The translations under genes and the position numbers were made by a program. The notes beneath the pieces are model-generated. The model was not told the DNA's origin and made no database searches. It saw only the letters and a list, made by a program, of their open reading frames with translations. A DNA stretch of 33,167 nt, taken from positions 1-33,167 of the IMG/VR virus record IMGVR_UViG_3300009420_004026; one strand, given 5' to 3'. This stretch comes from a virus. Positions 1 to 25,304 of the stretch are shown here, piece after piece (the stretch's first letter is position 1; each line of letters opens with the position of its first letter).

Positions 1-3000
1 ATACCTTGAATACCTAGGGTACCTTGAGTACCTTGTGTGCCCTGAAAGCCTTGAGTACCTTGAAAGCCTTGAGTACCTTGTATCGCAGTACCTTGCGCGC
101 CTATAATACCTTGAAACCCGATTGGGCCCACAGGACCCGGCACACCGCGTGTGCCCTGCGGTCCTTGCCAACGTGAACCTTGTAAACCCTGGTAACCGAA
201 AAGTCCTTGATTACCTTGTATACCTTGAGCACCCAACGTACCCTGACGGCCCTGTCGTCCTTGAGTACCTTGGTGACCGATAGTACCTTGCCGGCCCTGA
301 GCACCTTGCCGACCCTGACGGCCCTGTCGTCCTTGAGTACCTTGAATACCCTGAGTACCTACTTTACCCTGTATTCCCTGGATACCTTGCATTCCCTGGA
401 TACCTTGTACACCTTGGTTTCCCTGTATACCTTGTATACCTTGAATACCTTGACGGCCTTGAGTACCTTGTAAGCCTTGGACACCTTGGACACCTTGGCT
501 GCCTTGCATGCCCTGAAAGCCTTGGCGGCCTTGGATCCCTTGCCGACCTTGACGACCCCGAATACCCTGAATACCTTGGACGCCTCTAGTACCCTGAATA
601 CCTTGGATACCTTGTTCACCCTGAACACCTTGGACACCTTGCCCAGGTCCACGTAAACCTTGAACGCCTTGAACACCTTGCTCTCCCGTGATACCTTGAG
701 AACCTTCATTTCCAGTACCCTGAATACCCTGACGGCCGTACGATCCTTGAATACCCTGGATACCCTGTTCGCCTGTAATACCCTGCACGCCTTGAATACC
801 CTGAATACCCTGAACACCTTGGACACCTTGAATACCCTGTGGACCGACAATGTTTCCTACATTTAGCCATTCTCCGCCGTTGTCAGGAGTAAAAGTCCAC
901 AAGTCATTTGTTAATTCATCTATAGCAGCATCCCCAGGAACAGCATCTGCAAACGATGTTTCTAGTATTACCTGTGGATCGAAAGTCGGTGCTTGATTAA
1001 CATTTGCCACAGTCCCAAGTATTCTAAACGGGTTACCGGTATTACCTTGAACACCTTGCTCGCCTGTGATACCTTGCATACCTTGAGTACCTTGTATCGC
1101 AGTACCTTGTACGCCTTGAATACCTTGAAAACCTTGAAATCCACGATTTCCAATAATACCTTGGAAACCTTGAGTTCCTTGTATTGCAGTACCCTGGATG
1201 CCTTGTATACCTTGACGACCTTGAAATCCTTGTATACCCTGTCGGCCTTGAATACCCTGTATTCCCTGGATACCTTGCATTCCCTGGATACCTTGTATAC
1301 CCTGAGGCCCAACAATGTCTCCAGTGTTTATCCATTCGGTTCCGTTCCACAACCAAAAATGGTTTAATTCCTCGTCAATTATGCCGTCAGACATACCAGG
1401 TCCGGCGATAGCAGGTCTTTCTGTTGGAGGATTGCCATCTGTTGTCGGACCAAACGCTTCTCTTATTATTTCTTCGGGAGTGCGGGCTGGATAATTAACG
1501 TTTACATCTTCAATAGTTCCTATTATTCTAAACGGATCCCCAGTTTTACCCTGTACACCCTGGCTGCCTTGTAAACCCTGGCTGCCCTGTAAACCCTGGT
1601 ACCCACCGCCACCTTGAATACCCTGAGTGCCTTGAATACCCTGTATACCTTGAAAGCCTTGTAATCCTTGGCCGCCTTGCATGCCTTGGATACCTTGCTC
1701 GCCCTGAATACCTTGAATACCGTCAAAACCTTGTATACCCTGGCGTCCTTGAATGCCTTGTAATCCAATGCCTGTATGACCTTGAACACCCTGCTCTCCT
1801 TGAATACCTTGAACACCCTGGATCCCCTGAATACCTTGGACACCCTGAACACCCTGCGTGCCCTGCGTGCCTTGTGTTCCGAGATTTCCTTGAATACCTT
1901 GCGAGGCCTGGGTACCTTGAATACCTTGTACGCCTTGAATACCTTGTACGCCTTGCATACCTTGGAAACCTTGGACTCCTCTTACAGGACCAACGTTTAC
2001 CCAAACATTGCTGCCCGTGTATGCCCACAGATCGTTTGTCGCTTCGTCAATAACAGTCTGGCCAACTCCCGCAGAAGAAAACGCTGCGTTTAGCAAAGTA
2101 ATTGGGTTGTTAGGTGGATCTGCGTTAACGTCGCTTACCGCTCCAATAATATTCAGAGCGGGCCCGAAAGCACCTTGAAGTCCTTGAGAACCTTGAAGTC
2201 CTTGCTCTCCCATGATACCTTGGACGCCCTGAATACCCTGAATGCCTTGTATGCCTTGTTCACCCTGAATGCCTTGTAAACCCTGTTGGCCAAAGGTACC
2301 TTGGAAACCAACACCAGTTGTACCCTGAGTTCCGATAAAACCTGTAAAGCCCTGGGCTCCAATGATTCCTTGATTTCCTTGTAAACCTTGAAGACCTTGC
2401 GATCCTTGTATTGCAGCTCCTTGAGTACCCTGTATACCTTGATAACCTAAGTTACCTTGAATACCTTGCAAGCCCTGGTTTCCGTAACCAGCTTTACCCT
2501 GTACGCCTTGTATTGCAGTACCTTGTAAACCCTGGGTACCTAAACCGCCAGTTCCTTGAATACCTTGGTCTCCTAGAACACCCTGAATACCCTGAAACCC
2601 TTGTATTCCCTGAATACCTTGGACACCCTGGTTTCCTTGAAGTCCTTGTATTCCTTGTATTCCTTGAAGACCTTGGCCTCCTTGAAGGCCCTGAATACCT
2701 TGAAAACCTTGAATACCTTGAATACCACGGCGCCCCTGTACGCCTTGTATTCCAAACTCACCTATTGTGCCCTGTATACCTTGGATACCTTGCCAACCTT
2801 GAATACCCTGAACACCTTGGACACCTTGCTCAGCAATATTACCTTGAATACCCTGAATACCTTGAAAACCTTGAAAACCTCGACCGTCAATACCTTGGAC
2901 ACCCTGGTTTCCCTGGATACCCTGCGTACCTTGGCCTCCTTGAAAACCTAGTGTACCCTGCGTACCTTGCTCGCCAGTAACTTGAGTACCTTGAGTACCT

Positions 3001-3134
3001 TGAGTACCTTGCATTGTAGTAGAACCGCCGCTGCCGCTTGATCTAACCCAAACGTTAGTAGCTGCGTTGTATGTGAATACTACAGTTCCAATAACATATG
3101 TGTCGCCGTCTGCAGGTGATGTTGGAAATGCCAT
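1..3134 (-). CDS. Giant collagen-like virion protein (3' end outside window)
   Basis: The frame is open from the ATG at 3134 to the window edge, about 1,044 codons without a stop, so the C-terminus is missing. Residues 1-40 form a non-repetitive head (starts [13 protein letters not shown], later [11 protein letters not shown]). Almost everything else is collagen-type triplets, nearly always Gly-x-Gln ([10 protein letters not shown]), in four blocks: about 41-325, 384-530, 610-697 and 765 to the edge. Three related non-collagen inserts separate them (about 325-383, 531-609, 698-764). Each carries an IIG/ILG...VN stretch, an acidic IDE, a W-rich DLW or FWLW motif, and W(V/I/L)N before the next triplets. 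Such repeats in phage fibres form trimeric stalks, so a tail-fibre or other surface role is inferred. The ATG overlaps the upstream stop by one base (TAATG), so translation is probably coupled. I checked the frame at several points across the repeats and found no shift. Confidence 0.9.
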
Positions 3135-6185: not shown

Positions 6186-6938
6186 TTAAGCAACTTCTAA
6201 AAATCGTTCTTTTGCAATTATATATTCTTTTACTAACCCAGAACGAACGATATCATCCACTCCAAAATTTATAACTTCAAAAGATGCGATTTGATTAATA
6301 ACTTTTAAAAAGTCGTATAAGCCCGAGGTATCGGCTTTATTTTTAGAAGTAGCTAGGTCGTCTTGTTTAGTGTCTCCGCAAAAAATAATTTTTGACGATT
6401 CGCCAACTCGAGTAATAATAGTATCAAGCTCGTGATAATTCATGGACTGACATTCGTCAACCATTATAATTGAATTATCAAAAGTAAGACCTCTTATATT
6501 TGAAGAAGTTGTAAATCTAATCATGTCCTTTTGCTTAAGTATTTGATATGCATCTTTTCGTGAAAACAAATCATTTACTATATCGATATAAGGCAATTCA
6601 AAAATTGCTTCTTTTTGTTCTAATGTACCTGGGACAAACCCCTGTTCGCGTGTCTGAACTGCAGAACGTATAATGACGACCTTTTCATATTCTCCTTTCT
6701 CTAGTACGTCTTTGAGTGCTAAATATGTAGCACACATTGTTTTACCCGTACCTGCTGTTCCGATGGCGGCAACGTTGTATCCTTCTTGATAAGATTGAAA
6801 TAAATCACCTTGTGTAGGCGTTAATGGTTGTATTTCGCGCATTGCAAACTTCGTGTTTAAAATGCTAACTAAATGATCCATATCTCTTTCTTGTCTAAGC
6901 TTTTCTCTTTTGGATAATCTGCGCTGTTTAGATGCCAT
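6186..6938 (-). CDS. phoH: PhoH-like NTPase
   Basis: 250 residues. Walker A GTAGTGKT lies at 60-67 and Walker B IIMVDE at about 157-162. Between them is the family block FTTSSNIRGLTFDNS (about 142-156), followed by FCGDTKQDD. The N-terminus is strongly basic (RRLSKREKLRQER). PhoH belongs to the Pho regulon in bacteria and is frequent in marine phages; its reaction during infection is not settled, with RNA helicase/NTPase roles proposed. The ATG at 6938 has a strong GGGAGG four bases upstream. It is 40 nt downstream of the FmdB-like gene and probably shares its transcript. It is one of two phosphate-linked genes here, with the permease at 8757-9710. Confidence 0.93.
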   Translation of the reverse strand: MASKQRRLSKREKLRQERDMDHLVSILNTKFAMREIQPLTPTQGDLFQSYQEGYNVAAIGTAGTGKTMCATYLALKDVLEKGEYEKVVIIRSAVQTREQGFVPGTLEQKEAIFELPYIDIVNDLFSRKDAYQILKQKDMIRFTTSSNIRGLTFDNSIIMVDECQSMNYHELDTIITRVGESSKIIFCGDTKQDDLATSKNKADTSGLYDFLKVINQIASFEVINFGVDDIVRSGLVKEYIIAKERFLEVA

Positions 6939-8323: not shown

Positions 8324-8352
8324 AATATACACTATTAAAACAGGTTTGTCAA
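8324..8352 (-). promoter_or_regulatory. Early sigma-70 promoter
   Basis: Minus strand TTGACA (8347-8352), 17-nt spacer, TATATT (8324-8329), followed by the AAAAGGAATCAC leader of the 7930-8289 gene. Confidence 0.85.
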
Positions 8353-8681: not shown

Positions 8682-8710
8682 AATATAAACTATTAAAACA
8701 GACTTGTCAA
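8682..8710 (-). promoter_or_regulatory. Early sigma-70 promoter
   Basis: Minus strand TTGACA (8705-8710), 17-nt spacer, TATATT (8682-8687). It is nearly the same as the promoter at 8324-8352 and drives the 8377-8649 gene. Confidence 0.85.
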
Positions 8711-8756: not shown

Positions 8757-9710
8757 TTATGTTGGCGCTAAGACGTAATGCACAAGTAATACAAGTGCAA
8801 CTGAAGCCCCAAGACCAACCATCATTTTACCAAAGTCTTTTGCAACTATTGGAAATACTGATTTAGTTTTCTTTTTACCAGTGAATGTAGCAATAGCTAA
8901 TTCGCGTCCTGCTAACATGCCTACAAAAACCCAAGTTGTGCTCATTGGAATGTCATTTAATTCTTTAAAGAAATACAAGCATAGCCAATAGAATAAGTCA
9001 ATCAATGTGGCTGATCGTACATATCTTGTATTATGTTTCTCTAAAACAATTTGCTGGATTTTCCCGCCTTTTTCTTTAAACATGAAGAATAAACCGGCGA
9101 CGAATACAACTGATATAAGAACCATCAAATCCACAGGAACCACGCGTGGTAAGAATACCGCGATATTGGCCATATCATGTGACAGCCAAGTCCACCATAA
9201 ACCACCTGTTGCTAACCATTGAGCAATTCGCCAATAGTTCTTATACTCTTCTTTAACGGGTTTAGACTCATCGAGCCATTTGCTAACAAAGTACCATACT
9301 GCGTAAGCAAACGCTGCAGCAACACCGTAACCCATAATAGATTTCATAAGCATTTTTTCCAACACGAAGGTTGAAGCAAATACTGATAATACTAAGAATG
9401 ATGTTGAGACCGGCACACCAAAACGTGTTAAACCGACGAGTACTGCTGGTGCCATTGCGTGATACCATTGAACTTCCTGCCAAGGAATCTTGTTCAAACG
9501 TCCGTAACTAATATCACCACCATTCATGTACCAACCATACCAAAGTGTGGCAAGCAATACGCTTGATGCTGAAATCCATAATGTTTTGTAAGTAACTCTC
9601 TCATTGTTTGATGCCATCCATGTACCGAGAGTTTGTACTGAATCATTTGCAATTACTGCATACGCAGCTAACAGGAACCCGATAAGGCTCCATGTTGTAA
9701 GTAGTTCCAT
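8757..9710 (-). CDS. PiT/PHO4-family inorganic phosphate transporter
   Basis: 317 residues, very hydrophobic, with about eight likely membrane segments. The two half-repeats typical of phosphate permeases are visible. The first has VIANDSVQTLGTW (about 19-31) and GVPVSTSF (about 98-105). The second has WLSHDMANIAVF (about 175-186) and DIPMSTTWVFVG (about 253-264). These correspond to the GANDxxN and P(I/V)STT signatures of PitA and eukaryotic PiT proteins. Transport of phosphate into the infected cell with H+ or Na+ is the family function; substrate is inferred. It is shorter than PitA (about 500), lacking the large central loop. The ATG follows AAAAGGAT. It is a single-gene unit with a TATAAATA box 68 nt upstream, so expression is probably late, when DNA synthesis needs phosphate. 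Confidence 0.88.
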   Translation of the reverse strand: MELLTTWSLIGFLLAAYAVIANDSVQTLGTWMASNNERVTYKTLWISASSVLLATLWYGWYMNGGDISYGRLNKIPWQEVQWYHAMAPAVLVGLTRFGVPVSTSFLVLSVFASTFVLEKMLMKSIMGYGVAAAFAYAVWYFVSKWLDESKPVKEEYKNYWRIAQWLATGGLWWTWLSHDMANIAVFLPRVVPVDLMVLISVVFVAGLFFMFKEKGGKIQQIVLEKHNTRYVRSATLIDLFYWLCLYFFKELNDIPMSTTWVFVGMLAGRELAIATFTGKKKTKSVFPIVAKDFGKMMVGLGASVALVLLVHYVLAPT

Positions 9711-9778
9711 TTAATTATCCTTTTGCTTGACGGCTTTACCCCGTCGCTCACAATATTAAACATGATTGTTTAACGCAG

Positions 9779-9786
9779 TATTTATA
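9779..9786 (-). promoter_or_regulatory. Late promoter of the phosphate transporter
   Basis: Exact TATAAATA on the minus strand, 68 nt before the permease ATG and directly downstream of the terminator at 9802-9835. A small GACGG/CCGTC hairpin (about 9729-9746) sits in the leader just before the Shine-Dalgarno. Confidence 0.75.
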
Positions 9787-9801: not shown

Positions 9802-9835
9802 AAAAAAACGGAAAAACTATTTTGTTTTTCCGTTT
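9802..9835 (-). terminator. Intrinsic terminator
   Basis: A perfect 12-bp stem (9806-9817 with 9824-9835), 6-nt loop, then seven T on the minus strand. It ends the transcript of the genes at 10420-9859 and insulates the late promoter at 9779. Confidence 0.88.
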
Positions 9836-10453: not shown

Positions 10454-10482
10454 AATATACTATATTAATATAGGAATGTCAA
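10454..10482 (-). promoter_or_regulatory. Early sigma-70 promoter
   Basis: Minus strand TTGACA (10477-10482), 17-nt spacer, TATATT (10454-10459), followed by the AAAAAGGAATCA leader of the 10043-10420 gene. Confidence 0.85.
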
Positions 10483-18866: not shown

Positions 18867-19370
18867 TTAATCCCATAGGTTTTCGTAGAAACGACCAAAC
18901 AATCTAAATCCATCAGTCATTCTGCCTTGATGCGCTATAACACTTTCGCTATCCCATTTGTAATCGTATTCAGATATCCAATCATCTTTGCATTTTTGTT
19001 CAAACGCCCAAATCATTTCGTCTAAAATATCGTCCCACTCTTCTTCGCTTAATTCTTGCGGATAGCTATGCTTTGTTTCTTTTAGTTGTTTAAGCATCGG
19101 CAATATAATTACAGCAAGTGTATCATCCATGCTCCATGTATCCCAGCGATGAATGTGTACTTTTACTTTTTGCGTACGCCTGTCAAACCACAACCAGTTA
19201 AATACGTTGTACACGCTTTGCACTGCGTCTTCAATAGCTTCCCATACGTGATCGCCGTAGTCCCAATAAGCTTCTTCTGGCCAGTGTAAAGATTTGTACT
19301 TTTTATTCATATGACGAGTATGCGCATTACATATTAGTCTATTTGAATAATTCCCTATTTTAACTTTCAT
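18867..19370 (-). CDS. Conserved T4-like phage protein (RWDTWSMDDTLA family), unknown function
   Basis: 167 residues from the ATG at 19370; a TTG at 19391 would extend it but has less support. The motif VKVHIHRWDTWSMDDTLAVI is followed by LPMLKQLKETKHSYP and DEMIWAFEQKC. I recognise these from a conserved marine T4-like protein, whose function is unknown to me. Trp-rich throughout. The start overlaps the end of gene 55 by 11 bases and the stop lies three bases before 47, so it belongs to the recombination/late-sigma operon. Confidence 0.85.
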   Translation of the reverse strand: MKVKIGNYSNRLICNAHTRHMNKKYKSLHWPEEAYWDYGDHVWEAIEDAVQSVYNVFNWLWFDRRTQKVKVHIHRWDTWSMDDTLAVIILPMLKQLKETKHSYPQELSEEEWDDILDEMIWAFEQKCKDDWISEYDYKWDSESVIAHQGRMTDGFRLFGRFYENLWD

Positions 19371-19893
19371 CTTTAGTCTTTTCTTCAACAACTTTTTTTG
19401 GAAGTTTTTTGCTTGCTAATTTTTCTTCATAATCGCTAACGAAATGATTTATATAATCTGCGTTTGTGTTTAAGTGTAATTGTACTTCATTAGATTCATA
19501 TGTTGCGCCCTGTGCAACCATGTTGTGTGAAGATTTAAAGCGAATATACATTTGCTTTTTTTCTTTTTGGATCCTGCGTAAAAACGCGAACCAAATAACT
19601 TGTGTAAAATACGCAAACGGATTTGAAGACTTGTTGTGATCGAAGTTGCCAATGTATAGAAGGCAGTTTTCTATACCGTCCATAATCATATCTTCTTTAT
19701 AAGTGTAGCCTGAGAAGTTTGGTTTTGTAGCAAGACGGTTTGCAATTTTAAAAATGCATTCTCCAATATAAACCGGCACTATAGGTAACTTATCACCCTG
19801 ATTTTCAGCTTCAACGCATCGCTTCTTGTATTCAATTAGCGCGTCTAACAAATCCTTGTTGTTTACATAATTTCTTTTTGCTCTTCTCGCCAT
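19360..19893 (-). CDS. 55: Late-transcription sigma factor gp55
   Basis: 177 residues (T4 gp55: 185). A basic N-terminus (MARRAKRNYVNNKDL) leads into the sigma region 2-like block: YKEDMIMDGIENCLLYIGNF, then NPFAYFTQVIWFAFLRRIQKEKKQ (about 91-114), which binds the TATAAATA box and core RNA polymerase. In T4, gp55 with gp33 and the clamp directs late transcription. The late boxes in this window are its expected targets. The gene appears early-expressed (sigma-70-like elements upstream, AAAAGGAT before the ATG). Confidence 0.92.
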   Translation of the reverse strand: MARRAKRNYVNNKDLLDALIEYKKRCVEAENQGDKLPIVPVYIGECIFKIANRLATKPNFSGYTYKEDMIMDGIENCLLYIGNFDHNKSSNPFAYFTQVIWFAFLRRIQKEKKQMYIRFKSSHNMVAQGATYESNEVQLHLNTNADYINHFVSDYEEKLASKKLPKKVVEEKTKDES

Positions 19894-23480: not shown

Positions 23481-24191
23481 ATGAAAAAATACATTTTTGA
23501 TGTCGATGGAACTCTAACACCGAGTAGGAAACGTATGAATAAAGAATTTGCTGTATGGTTTAGCAAATTCTGCCAAAGAAATAATGTCTATTTAGTTACC
23601 GGAAGCGATAGGCCAAAAACTATTGAACAAGTAGGTAACTACATATACCACCAATGTAAACGCGTGTACCAGTGCTCAGGTAATGATGTATGGGAGCGTG
23701 ACGTAAACACTCGTACTAATGATTGGGCAATACCTGCAGAAGTGCATCAGTTGTTAAGAGAATTTGTACGACTTAGTGAATTTCCGATACGCGCTGGTAA
23801 TCATATTGAAGAACGGCCCGGAATGGTTAACTTCAGTATTGTAGGCCGTAACGCTAGTCTAGAACAGCGAGCAGAATATGTTGCTTATGATACTCGTAAA
23901 AAAGAGCGTGAAGCATTAGCTCGTATTATCACTAACGAGTTCGCTGATATTACTGCAACGGTAGGTGGCGAGACTGGAATTGATATCGGTCAACTTGGCT
24001 CAGATAAAAGCCAAATACTACGAGACTTTAACAGCAAAGATAATATCTATTTCTTTGGAGATGCTATGTTTGATGGTGGCAACGACAAACCGTTAGCAGA
24101 TGCAATGAAAGCTCGAGATCGTGCTGGGATGTCGTATCCGGTAACAGGCTGGGAACACACATTTAAAATTTTAAAGGAGATTAAAAATTGA
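23481..24191 (+). CDS. Phosphomannomutase-like HAD enzyme
   Basis: 236 residues, similar in length to eukaryotic-type phosphomannomutase (about 250). It has HAD motif I FDVDGTLTPSR (Asp7 nucleophile, Asp9), motif II VTGSDRP, and a cap region with GNDVWERD and RPGMVNFSIVGRNA. The C-terminus has GGETGIDIGQLGSDKSQIL and FFGDAMFDGGNDKPLA, ending YPVTGWEHTFKIL. The GGND and the conserved cap are PMM-like; interconversion of mannose 6- and 1-phosphate is the family reaction, inferred here. It overlaps the nucleotidyltransferase gene by four bases, suggesting one sugar-phosphate activation pathway. Confidence 0.85.
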   Translation: MKKYIFDVDGTLTPSRKRMNKEFAVWFSKFCQRNNVYLVTGSDRPKTIEQVGNYIYHQCKRVYQCSGNDVWERDVNTRTNDWAIPAEVHQLLREFVRLSEFPIRAGNHIEERPGMVNFSIVGRNASLEQRAEYVAYDTRKKEREALARIITNEFADITATVGGETGIDIGQLGSDKSQILRDFNSKDNIYFFGDAMFDGGNDKPLADAMKARDRAGMSYPVTGWEHTFKILKEIKN

Positions 24192-24604
24192 AAACTGGTA
24201 TTGTAGCATCATCATTTGATTTACTACACTCAGGACATATTATGATGTTGAGAGAAGCTAAAACGAAATGCGACCATTTAATTTGTGCTATTCAGATAGA
24301 TCCAAGTATCGACCGCCACGAAAAAAACGCGCCTATACAAAGTATTGTTGAAAGATACACACAAATAACCGCAGTAAAATACGTTGATGAAGTCGTTGTA
24401 TATCAAAGCGAAAAAGATCTTGAAGATATATTAGAATCGTATCCAATAGATATTCGTATTCTAGGTGAAGAATACAAAGATAAGGATTTCACTGGGCGCG
24501 AAATATGTAAAAAATTAGGCATTTATATTTATTTTAATAAACGAAATCATCGCTTTAGCTCAAGTAGCTTAAGAAAAAGAATTATTGCAAAAGAAACTGT
24601 TTGA
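24188..24604 (+). CDS. Cytidylyltransferase-like nucleotidyltransferase
   Basis: 138 residues from a TTG start at 24188, supported by AAAGGAG eight bases upstream and a four-base overlap (TTGA) with the phosphomannomutase-like gene. The HxGH motif is LLHSGHIMML (His14, His17). The middle has KNAPIQSIVERYTQI and the C-terminus RFSSSSLRKRI, corresponding to the second catalytic signature (RT-GISTT-type) of glycerol-3-phosphate cytidylyltransferase relatives. The family joins a nucleotide to a phosphorylated small molecule; the substrate here is not known. Confidence 0.85.
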   Translation: MKTGIVASSFDLLHSGHIMMLREAKTKCDHLICAIQIDPSIDRHEKNAPIQSIVERYTQITAVKYVDEVVVYQSEKDLEDILESYPIDIRILGEEYKDKDFTGREICKKLGIYIYFNKRNHRFSSSSLRKRIIAKETV

Positions 24605-24629
24605 CATTTATAAAAAAATGTTGTAGACT
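24601..24629 (+). promoter_or_regulatory. Early promoter of the TilS-like gene
   Basis: TTGACA (24601-24606) overlaps the stop codon of the nucleotidyltransferase; 17-nt spacer, then TAGACT (24624-24629). Confidence 0.55.
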
Positions 24630-24662
24630 ACAATATGTAAAGTATATTAATTATGGGATATC

Positions 24663-25304
24663 ATGTTTAAAATTCAAGGAAAGTTGCCTCGCACTGTAAA
24701 TGTAGCGTGCTCTGGAGGTGTTGACTCTATGGCCGCAGTAGATTTCTTAAGAAGAAATCATAATGTTAATTTATTATTTTTCGATCATGGTACGGACACG
24801 TCCAAAGAAGCTCTGGAATTTCTAACAAAATTCGCAGCTCGTAAAAACGGAGAATTTAATGATAAACCTATTGGTAGTAATATTTCAATAAAAACGAGTA
24901 AAATCTCAAGACCAAAACATCAGCGAGAGTCGCAAGAAGAATATTGGAGAAACGAAAGATACAAATTCTTTTTTGATCAGCAAGCCCCTGTAATTACTTG
25001 TCACCATTTAGATGATTGCGTAGAGACGTGGATTTGGTCTAGCCTTCACGGAAAACCTAAAATTATTCCGTATACAAATATGAATGTTATCCGCCCGTTT
25101 AGATTAAATAAAAAAACAGAATTTGTAAATTGGTGTAGGCGCAATAACATTCCTTGGATTGAAGATACATCAAATGAAAACACAGACCATATGCGAAACT
25201 TTATTAGACATGAAATTATGCAAAAAGCGCTGGTTGTAAATCCTGGATTATATAAAGTAATTTATAAAAAAATAAATGAAGATTATGCAGAGCAACCCGT
25301 TTAA
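24663..25304 (+). CDS. TilS-like PP-loop ATPase (tRNA lysidine synthetase core)
   Basis: 213 residues. The N-type ATP-pyrophosphatase loop is CSGGVDSMAA (about 16-25). TilS-specific blocks follow: ITCHHLDDCVETW (about 115-127), IRPFRL, and WIEDTSNENTDHMRNFIRHEIM (about 168-189). Bacterial TilS (about 430 residues) converts cytidine 34 of tRNA-Ile(CAU) to lysidine. This protein keeps only the catalytic domain and lacks the C-terminal tRNA-binding domains. No tRNA gene is visible in the window. It could modify a phage or host tRNA, or have another adenylation substrate. Confidence 0.85.
   Translation: MFKIQGKLPRTVNVACSGGVDSMAAVDFLRRNHNVNLLFFDHGTDTSKEALEFLTKFAARKNGEFNDKPIGSNISIKTSKISRPKHQRESQEEYWRNERYKFFFDQQAPVITCHHLDDCVETWIWSSLHGKPKIIPYTNMNVIRPFRLNKKTEFVNWCRRNNIPWIEDTSNENTDHMRNFIRHEIMQKALVVNPGLYKVIYKKINEDYAEQPV

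Follow-up and report, generated by a model that had tools for sequence, protein, structure and literature searches.

A divergent PiT-type permease gene in a T4-like phage and a conserved 28-nt RNA element in its leader

Phage production is phosphorus-limited across much of the ocean, and the phosphate genes known so far in phages are mostly pstS and phoH. Like the pit gene described here, cyanophage pstS and phoH are phosphate genes of T4-like marine phages, but they encode a binding protein and an ATPase, whereas phage pit encodes a complete permease behind an RNA leader, and is joined by pstS in some relatives. Virus-encoded phosphate permeases acquired from cells are also represented by the sodium phosphate symporters of coccolithoviruses and prasinoviruses (PMC6163359). 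Those proteins, however, belong to eukaryotic algal viruses, are 459-534 aa long and have host-like sequences, and the survey of viral transporters that describes them reports sodium phosphate transporters from algal viruses only, with no phage example. The nearest solved structure is that of the Na+-dependent TmPiT of Thermotoga maritima (PDB 6L85; SLC20/PiT, TCDB 2.A.20), which has in common with the phage permease its fold and the two signature halves with their ND and P-x-ST motifs, and differs from it in sequence (16% identity), in length (about 400 against 317 residues) and in that the phage protein lies below the PF01384 cut-off. On the RNA side, the T4 gene 43 operator and the preQ1 riboswitches resemble the leader element in being short conserved hairpins that directly precede a single gene's or operon's ribosome-binding site; unlike them, the element matches no Rfam family and is tied to phosphate uptake.

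The window, by which we mean the whole stretch of DNA analysed here, is a virus record of 33,167 bp and a fragment of a T4-like phage genome (Table 1). T4-like genes recognised in it encode the gp43 DNA polymerase, a gp46-type SbcC-like nuclease subunit, a UvsW-type helicase, UvsY, gp55 and topoisomerase II subunits; the best identity of gp43 to cyanophage polymerases is 43%. At 3-3134 (minus strand), running off the left end of the window, lies a gene for a collagen-like protein of 1044 aa or more with QGIQGIQG-type repeats, probably a tail fibre or adhesin. Genes for a eukaryotic-type phosphomannomutase homologue, an HldE/TagD-like nucleotidyltransferase and a TilS-like PP-loop protein are clustered at 23481-25304 (plus strand). 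A permuted tmRNA gene of the alphaproteobacterial kind is present in several relatives, often just 3' of pit and with tags such as ANDNFAPSGYALAA, and the hosts are therefore probably Alphaproteobacteria; no tmRNA was found in the window itself.

Table 1 Positions of the pit locus features in the window, and of tmRNA genes in related contigs
Feature	Position	Strand	Basis or remark
PiT-type phosphate permease (putative), 317 aa	8757..9710	-	Intact ORF, profile, AlphaFold2 model, motifs
Shine-Dalgarno AAGGA	9718..9722	-	Sequence
28-nt RNA element GUGAGCGACGGGGUAAAGCCGUCAAGCA	9724..9751	-	Directly 5' of Shine-Dalgarno; 50.4 bits with model R1
Hairpin 1 GUUAAACAAUCAUGUUUAAU	9755..9774	-	Window fold; predicted 5' end of transcript
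T4-type late promoter box TATAAATA	9779..9786	-	Begins 76 nt before ATG
Terminator-like hairpin upstream of late box	9806..9835	-	12-bp stem, then U-run, z -5.0
UUCG-capped hairpin 3' of stop codon	8723..8752	-	13-bp stem, z -4.8
PhoH-like ATPase, separate unit	6186..6938	-	PF02562 E 1.8e-43
Late sigma factor gp55 homologue	19360..19893	-	phrog_234 E 6.8e-59
Permuted tmRNA gene, relative L016	7014-7391		
Permuted tmRNA gene, relative L031	6333-6728		
Permuted tmRNA gene, relative L035	7076-7449		
Permuted tmRNA gene, relative L069	6999-7313		
Permuted tmRNA gene, relative L074	5662-6008		
Permuted tmRNA genes, relatives L083-L085			

The initial annotation had described the gene as a compact PiT-type transporter with both signature halves, and had named a PF01384 search as the check. 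Both halves were present in the ORF, IANDSVQTLGT...GVPVSTS in the first and SHDMANIAVFLPR...IPMSTT in the second, and nearly every residue in them is unchanging across phage and cellular relatives (N22, D23, Q26, T27, L28, G29, T30, P100, V101, S102 and T103 in the first half; D179, A181, N182, P255, M256, S257, T258 and T259 in the second). The PF01384 model, however, gave the permease a score of 10.7 bits (E 0.25), far short of the curated cut-off of 33.7 bits, and the cellular relatives likewise stayed below it at 9.8-23.8 bits. The permease had no match in NCBIfam or PHROGs, and as a single query it gave either nothing or scores far under the cut-off in the PDB. Alignment to the single E. 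coli PitA sequence with hhalign placed one motif only. The PiT structure was reached only with a profile that included cellular relatives: built from 18 phage and cellular sequences, it gave one credible chain in a PDB-wide search, TmPiT 6L85 (E 3.1e-8), in which the ND and P-x-ST motifs line up with those of the profile. Modelling with AlphaFold2 from 55 diverse sequences yielded a pLDDT of 82.5 and a pTM of 0.82, compared with a pLDDT of only 38 from near-identical phage sequences. Foldseek ranked 6L85 first for this model (E 2.4e-5), and VIA-align superposed the two over 284 residues with a Z of 19.8 and an rmsd of 3.8, the next unrelated fold reaching Z 7.2; no viral structure in BFVD matched the model at E 0.001 or better. 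As modelled, the fold of the permease is of the PiT type, in agreement with the original description; membership of PF01384 did not hold, and because the cut-off of that family was missed we term the permease a divergent PiT-type protein and keep it out of PF01384.

A phage-borne PiT permease is unusual. There were no relatives among 50,697 phage records, which represent cultured phages, and the survey cited above names algal viruses only, so that the rarity claimed earlier for a complete permease of this kind is upheld. A search for a phage PiT in the literature covered here found none. In marine viral contigs, 463 stretches encode relatives, the best 80 of them at 84% identity or more. Cellular relatives, 56-65% identical over their full length, come from SAR11, Flavobacteriales, other Alphaproteobacteria and Gammaproteobacteria; in contrast to phage pit, they are not preceded by the RNA element, and Pho-box-like promoters stand before several of them. 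The permeases of phages group in a single clade (SH-aLRT 99), to which the cellular PiT-like proteins of marine bacteria are the nearest branch. Contigs binned as a Rhodobacteraceae genome fall within this clade and are probably phage, and its deepest two members (L084 and L085) are without the RNA element. Eight cellular genomes with a permease relative, all of them drafts, had no PF01384 match above the cut-off, and the relative may therefore be their only PiT-type protein. SAR11 and many marine Flavobacteriales (G002, G006, G007 and others) may have no PiT-type transporter other than this divergent branch, which falls under the Pfam cut-off.

The neighbourhoods of the cellular relatives bear on the substrate. 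One relative (L100) adjoins PhoB/PhoR-like regulators and an ACR3 arsenite pump that scores above the NCBIfam cut-off, Porin_O_P genes adjoin relatives in L096 and L232, in the latter beside a paralogue, and a distant relative in L213 adjoins a Na/Pi-PhoU protein. Pho boxes are built as 7-mer repeats with an 11-bp period; a perfect 7-mer pair at this period occurs in 6 of 30 cellular leaders (0.13 in shuffles), against 2 of the 30 at period 10 and none at the other five periods tested. Because the cellular relatives have such neighbours (PhoB/PhoR-like, Porin O/P, ACR3) or Pho-box-like repeats, phosphate is the best-supported substrate, and judged by this gene context the permease likely carries it, as had been expected. 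In some phage operons pstS precedes pit (L185 3090-4070, L187 2597-3574, L281, L297), and the phage PstS is closest to the solved phosphate-binding protein 9jwy (E 1.1e-58); SAR11 PstS has been the subject of a study (PMC12421899). Transport of sulfate, arsenate or another anion in place of phosphate would accord with the distance of the permease from classical PiT proteins and with the make-up of the PHO4/PiT superfamily, to which sulfate permeases belong. We consider it highly improbable, as the phosphate neighbours and Pho-box-like promoters of the cellular relatives, the presence of pstS within the same phage operons and a best structural match that is itself a phosphate transporter all argue against it.

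The gene had also been proposed to form an independent late unit, bracketed by a promoter box and two terminators, and to act with the nearby phoH in a joint phosphate programme. The late box is in place, and the gp55 homologue encoded in the window would be the sigma factor that reads it. Octamers of the TATAAATA type number 10 in the window against 4.0 expected, a count reached by 1 of 100 shuffles. The exact TATAAATA was rejected as the conserved box, being present in 9 of 112 relatives only; it is the degenerate NATAARTA that is conserved, with a match 60-100 nt ahead of the start codon in 40 of 78 related leaders, compared with 1.8% of random places, a background that would be higher in AT-rich intergenic DNA. 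The upstream terminator was likewise recovered. Downstream, the hairpin and its UUCG loop stand, but its designation as a terminator does not, since the transcribed strand has no U-tract there and the hairpin is absent from the terminator-scan list. Taken from sequence, these features support pit as a T4-type late transcription unit. The link to phoH was not sustained: phoH lies about 1.8 kb downstream of pit, and four other genes, together with two strong promoters of the sigma70-like kind, stand between them. Near-identical sigma70-like (early-type) promoters occur in the window at 8324-8352, 8682-8710 and 10454-10482 on the minus strand and at 32187-32215 and 32424-32452 on the plus strand; no member of this family is present before pit.

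Comparison of the leaders from related viral pit genes revealed a conserved block, which in the window lies within the region covered by the initial annotation (8757-9786) and was overlooked there. The element consists of GUGAGC, a 5-bp stem, a KGUAAAD loop and AAGCA. It stands 38-46 nt ahead of the start codon in 112 of the 124 distinct viral leaders compared; as phage leaders share ancestry, such counts do not represent independent events. Of the 12 leaders without it, 10 have pit behind another operon gene or are otherwise altered, and the remaining two (L051 and L070) keep a hairpin with a GGUAAAA loop between changed flanks. In a covariation alignment of 22 distinct element versions (A3; pairs 1-27, 2-26 and 7-11/19-23) all cells were paired, and 28 cells had changed on both sides against 6.4 expected, a number reached in 0 of 500 shuffles. 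The covariation score was 0.599 against 0.204, and was lost on sliding the partners. When no structure was assumed, the top five column pairs by corrected mutual information among 34 distinct forms were the five stem pairs. The outer helix of two pairs covaries weakly, and an alternative outer helix, 2-28/3-27, proved inferior to 1-27/2-26 when tested. All 119 extended versions form the seven pairs, and GUAAA, A4, G5, A24 and C27 never vary among them. Rfam 15 gave no credible match at the leader up to E 5 and none for the element at the gathering thresholds, where it returned only tmRNAs elsewhere in relatives. A literature search for a phosphate-linked phage RNA found none, and the element appears to be undescribed in Rfam and the literature searched.

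In every context that could be read, the element heads one kind of operon. It leads straight to pit in 125 of 149 distinct contexts; most of the others lead to pstS, to genes for outer-membrane-type proteins or to a 55-aa Cys-rich protein gene, followed by pit wherever the contig extends, and three end too early for a gene to be read. All 146 readable contexts are pit operons, or pit-operon genes cut by the contig end. Scans of 2.9 million viral contigs with the exact core letters followed by an ATG start (ATGAR, ATGY, ATGAY or ATGGB) returned pit-operon genes only. Among eight records of 87-230 kb, seven hold one copy and one holds two, before pstS and before pit. Cultured phages gave no match, and 441 sampled Pseudomonadota genomes gave none under filters stricter than those used in the phage records; the element model matched eight of eight phage records. 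The hairpin is kept by hundreds of related phages only before phosphate-uptake genes, which suggests RNA-based control of phosphate import in infection.

The covariation, the conserved unpaired residues and the fixed place of the element are best read as marks of a structured cis-regulatory RNA, with regulation itself as the predicted consequence. The conserved leader could in principle be a short coding region, and one frame does read roughly V-S-x-x-V-K-x-x-S as a leader peptide would. This explanation was rejected as extremely improbable: several third codon positions never change whereas second positions do, the changes in the stem are compensatory, and the spacing to the ATG occurs in all three frames. 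Another possibility is that the hairpins are passive, stabilising the late mRNA and holding the ribosome-binding site open with no sensing. Stabilised phage mRNAs carry 5'-end hairpins, and most of these leaders have a hairpin at the predicted 5' end; a stabiliser, however, would need neither an invariant loop and flanks nor restriction to one operon, and other genes in the same genomes are without the element, so we regard a passive role as unlikely. A small riboswitch, whose loop and internal loop would bind a metabolite or ion that reports phosphate status and so switch translation, would explain the invariant unpaired residues (the GUAAA loop, A4, G5 and A24), the position before the Shine-Dalgarno and the exclusive tie to phosphate-uptake genes. 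We nevertheless think it rather unlikely, for the element has only 28 nt and one stem, was not found in the 441 sampled Pseudomonadota genomes although riboswitches are usually shared with bacteria, and shows no conserved alternative pairing that would hide the Shine-Dalgarno (the mean run was 5.2, and 5.05 in shuffles). Its small size, its confinement to phages and the lack of a conserved competing structure lead us to favour a protein partner over a metabolite.

Other parts of the leader vary more. The first hairpin is AT-rich in the window and more GC-rich in most relatives; its loop contains GUAAA in 24 leaders, followed by a T-run in 20 of these, and is of the A[AT]CGU[CT]GA type in 31 leaders. 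In L003, L016, L054, L074, L163 and others, the GUAAA loop and T-run make a terminator-like first hairpin just before the element. Such a hairpin might act as an attenuator or offer a second site for binding. PhoB-box-like 7-mers, two or three at an 11-bp period, occur upstream of the promoter in 13 of 79 phage leaders, some 107-124 nt from pit (L048, L071, L074, L164, L186 and others); shuffles gave 0.12, and other periods 0-2. These phages may therefore also use host PhoB; none of the triplets was seen in the pit leader of the window phage. The triplets replace or accompany the late box, which is present in about half of the leaders, and timing therefore appears to vary between phages.

Drawing together the computed PiT fold, the phosphate context of the cellular relatives, the late box, the covarying element and its restriction to pit operons, we think it probable that the window derives from a T4-like phage of Alphaproteobacteria that would import phosphate late in infection through a PiT permease under translational control by the 28-nt element. 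The late transcript would start at the gp55-type box, about 65 nt before the ATG, and its short 5' UTR would hold the 5' hairpin and then the element, with 2-5 nt separating the outer pair from the Shine-Dalgarno. The element would serve as a cis-regulatory RNA for the phosphate-uptake operon, which comprises pit and, in some relatives, pstS and outer-membrane protein genes. A factor binding at the invariant GUAAA loop and the GAGC/AA internal loop would most likely control translation initiation, and a phage or host RNA-binding protein is the more likely factor than a metabolite. The product, a compact inner-membrane PiT-type permease, would then bring in inorganic phosphate. More tentatively, and with less than even confidence, the element may be a new, phage-confined class of regulatory RNA; by way of a metabolite or of an RNA-binding protein dedicated to it, it would sense phosphate status and set the translation of the whole phosphate-scavenging module of outer-membrane protein, PstS and PiT permease.

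A large group of uncultured marine phages carries a whole permease, to which some genomes add PstS and an outer-membrane protein, and these phosphate genes stand behind a dedicated RNA element that is absent from family databases. The element offers a small, testable RNA for how phages adjust nutrient uptake, and its 28 nt together with pit provide a marker for finding such phages.
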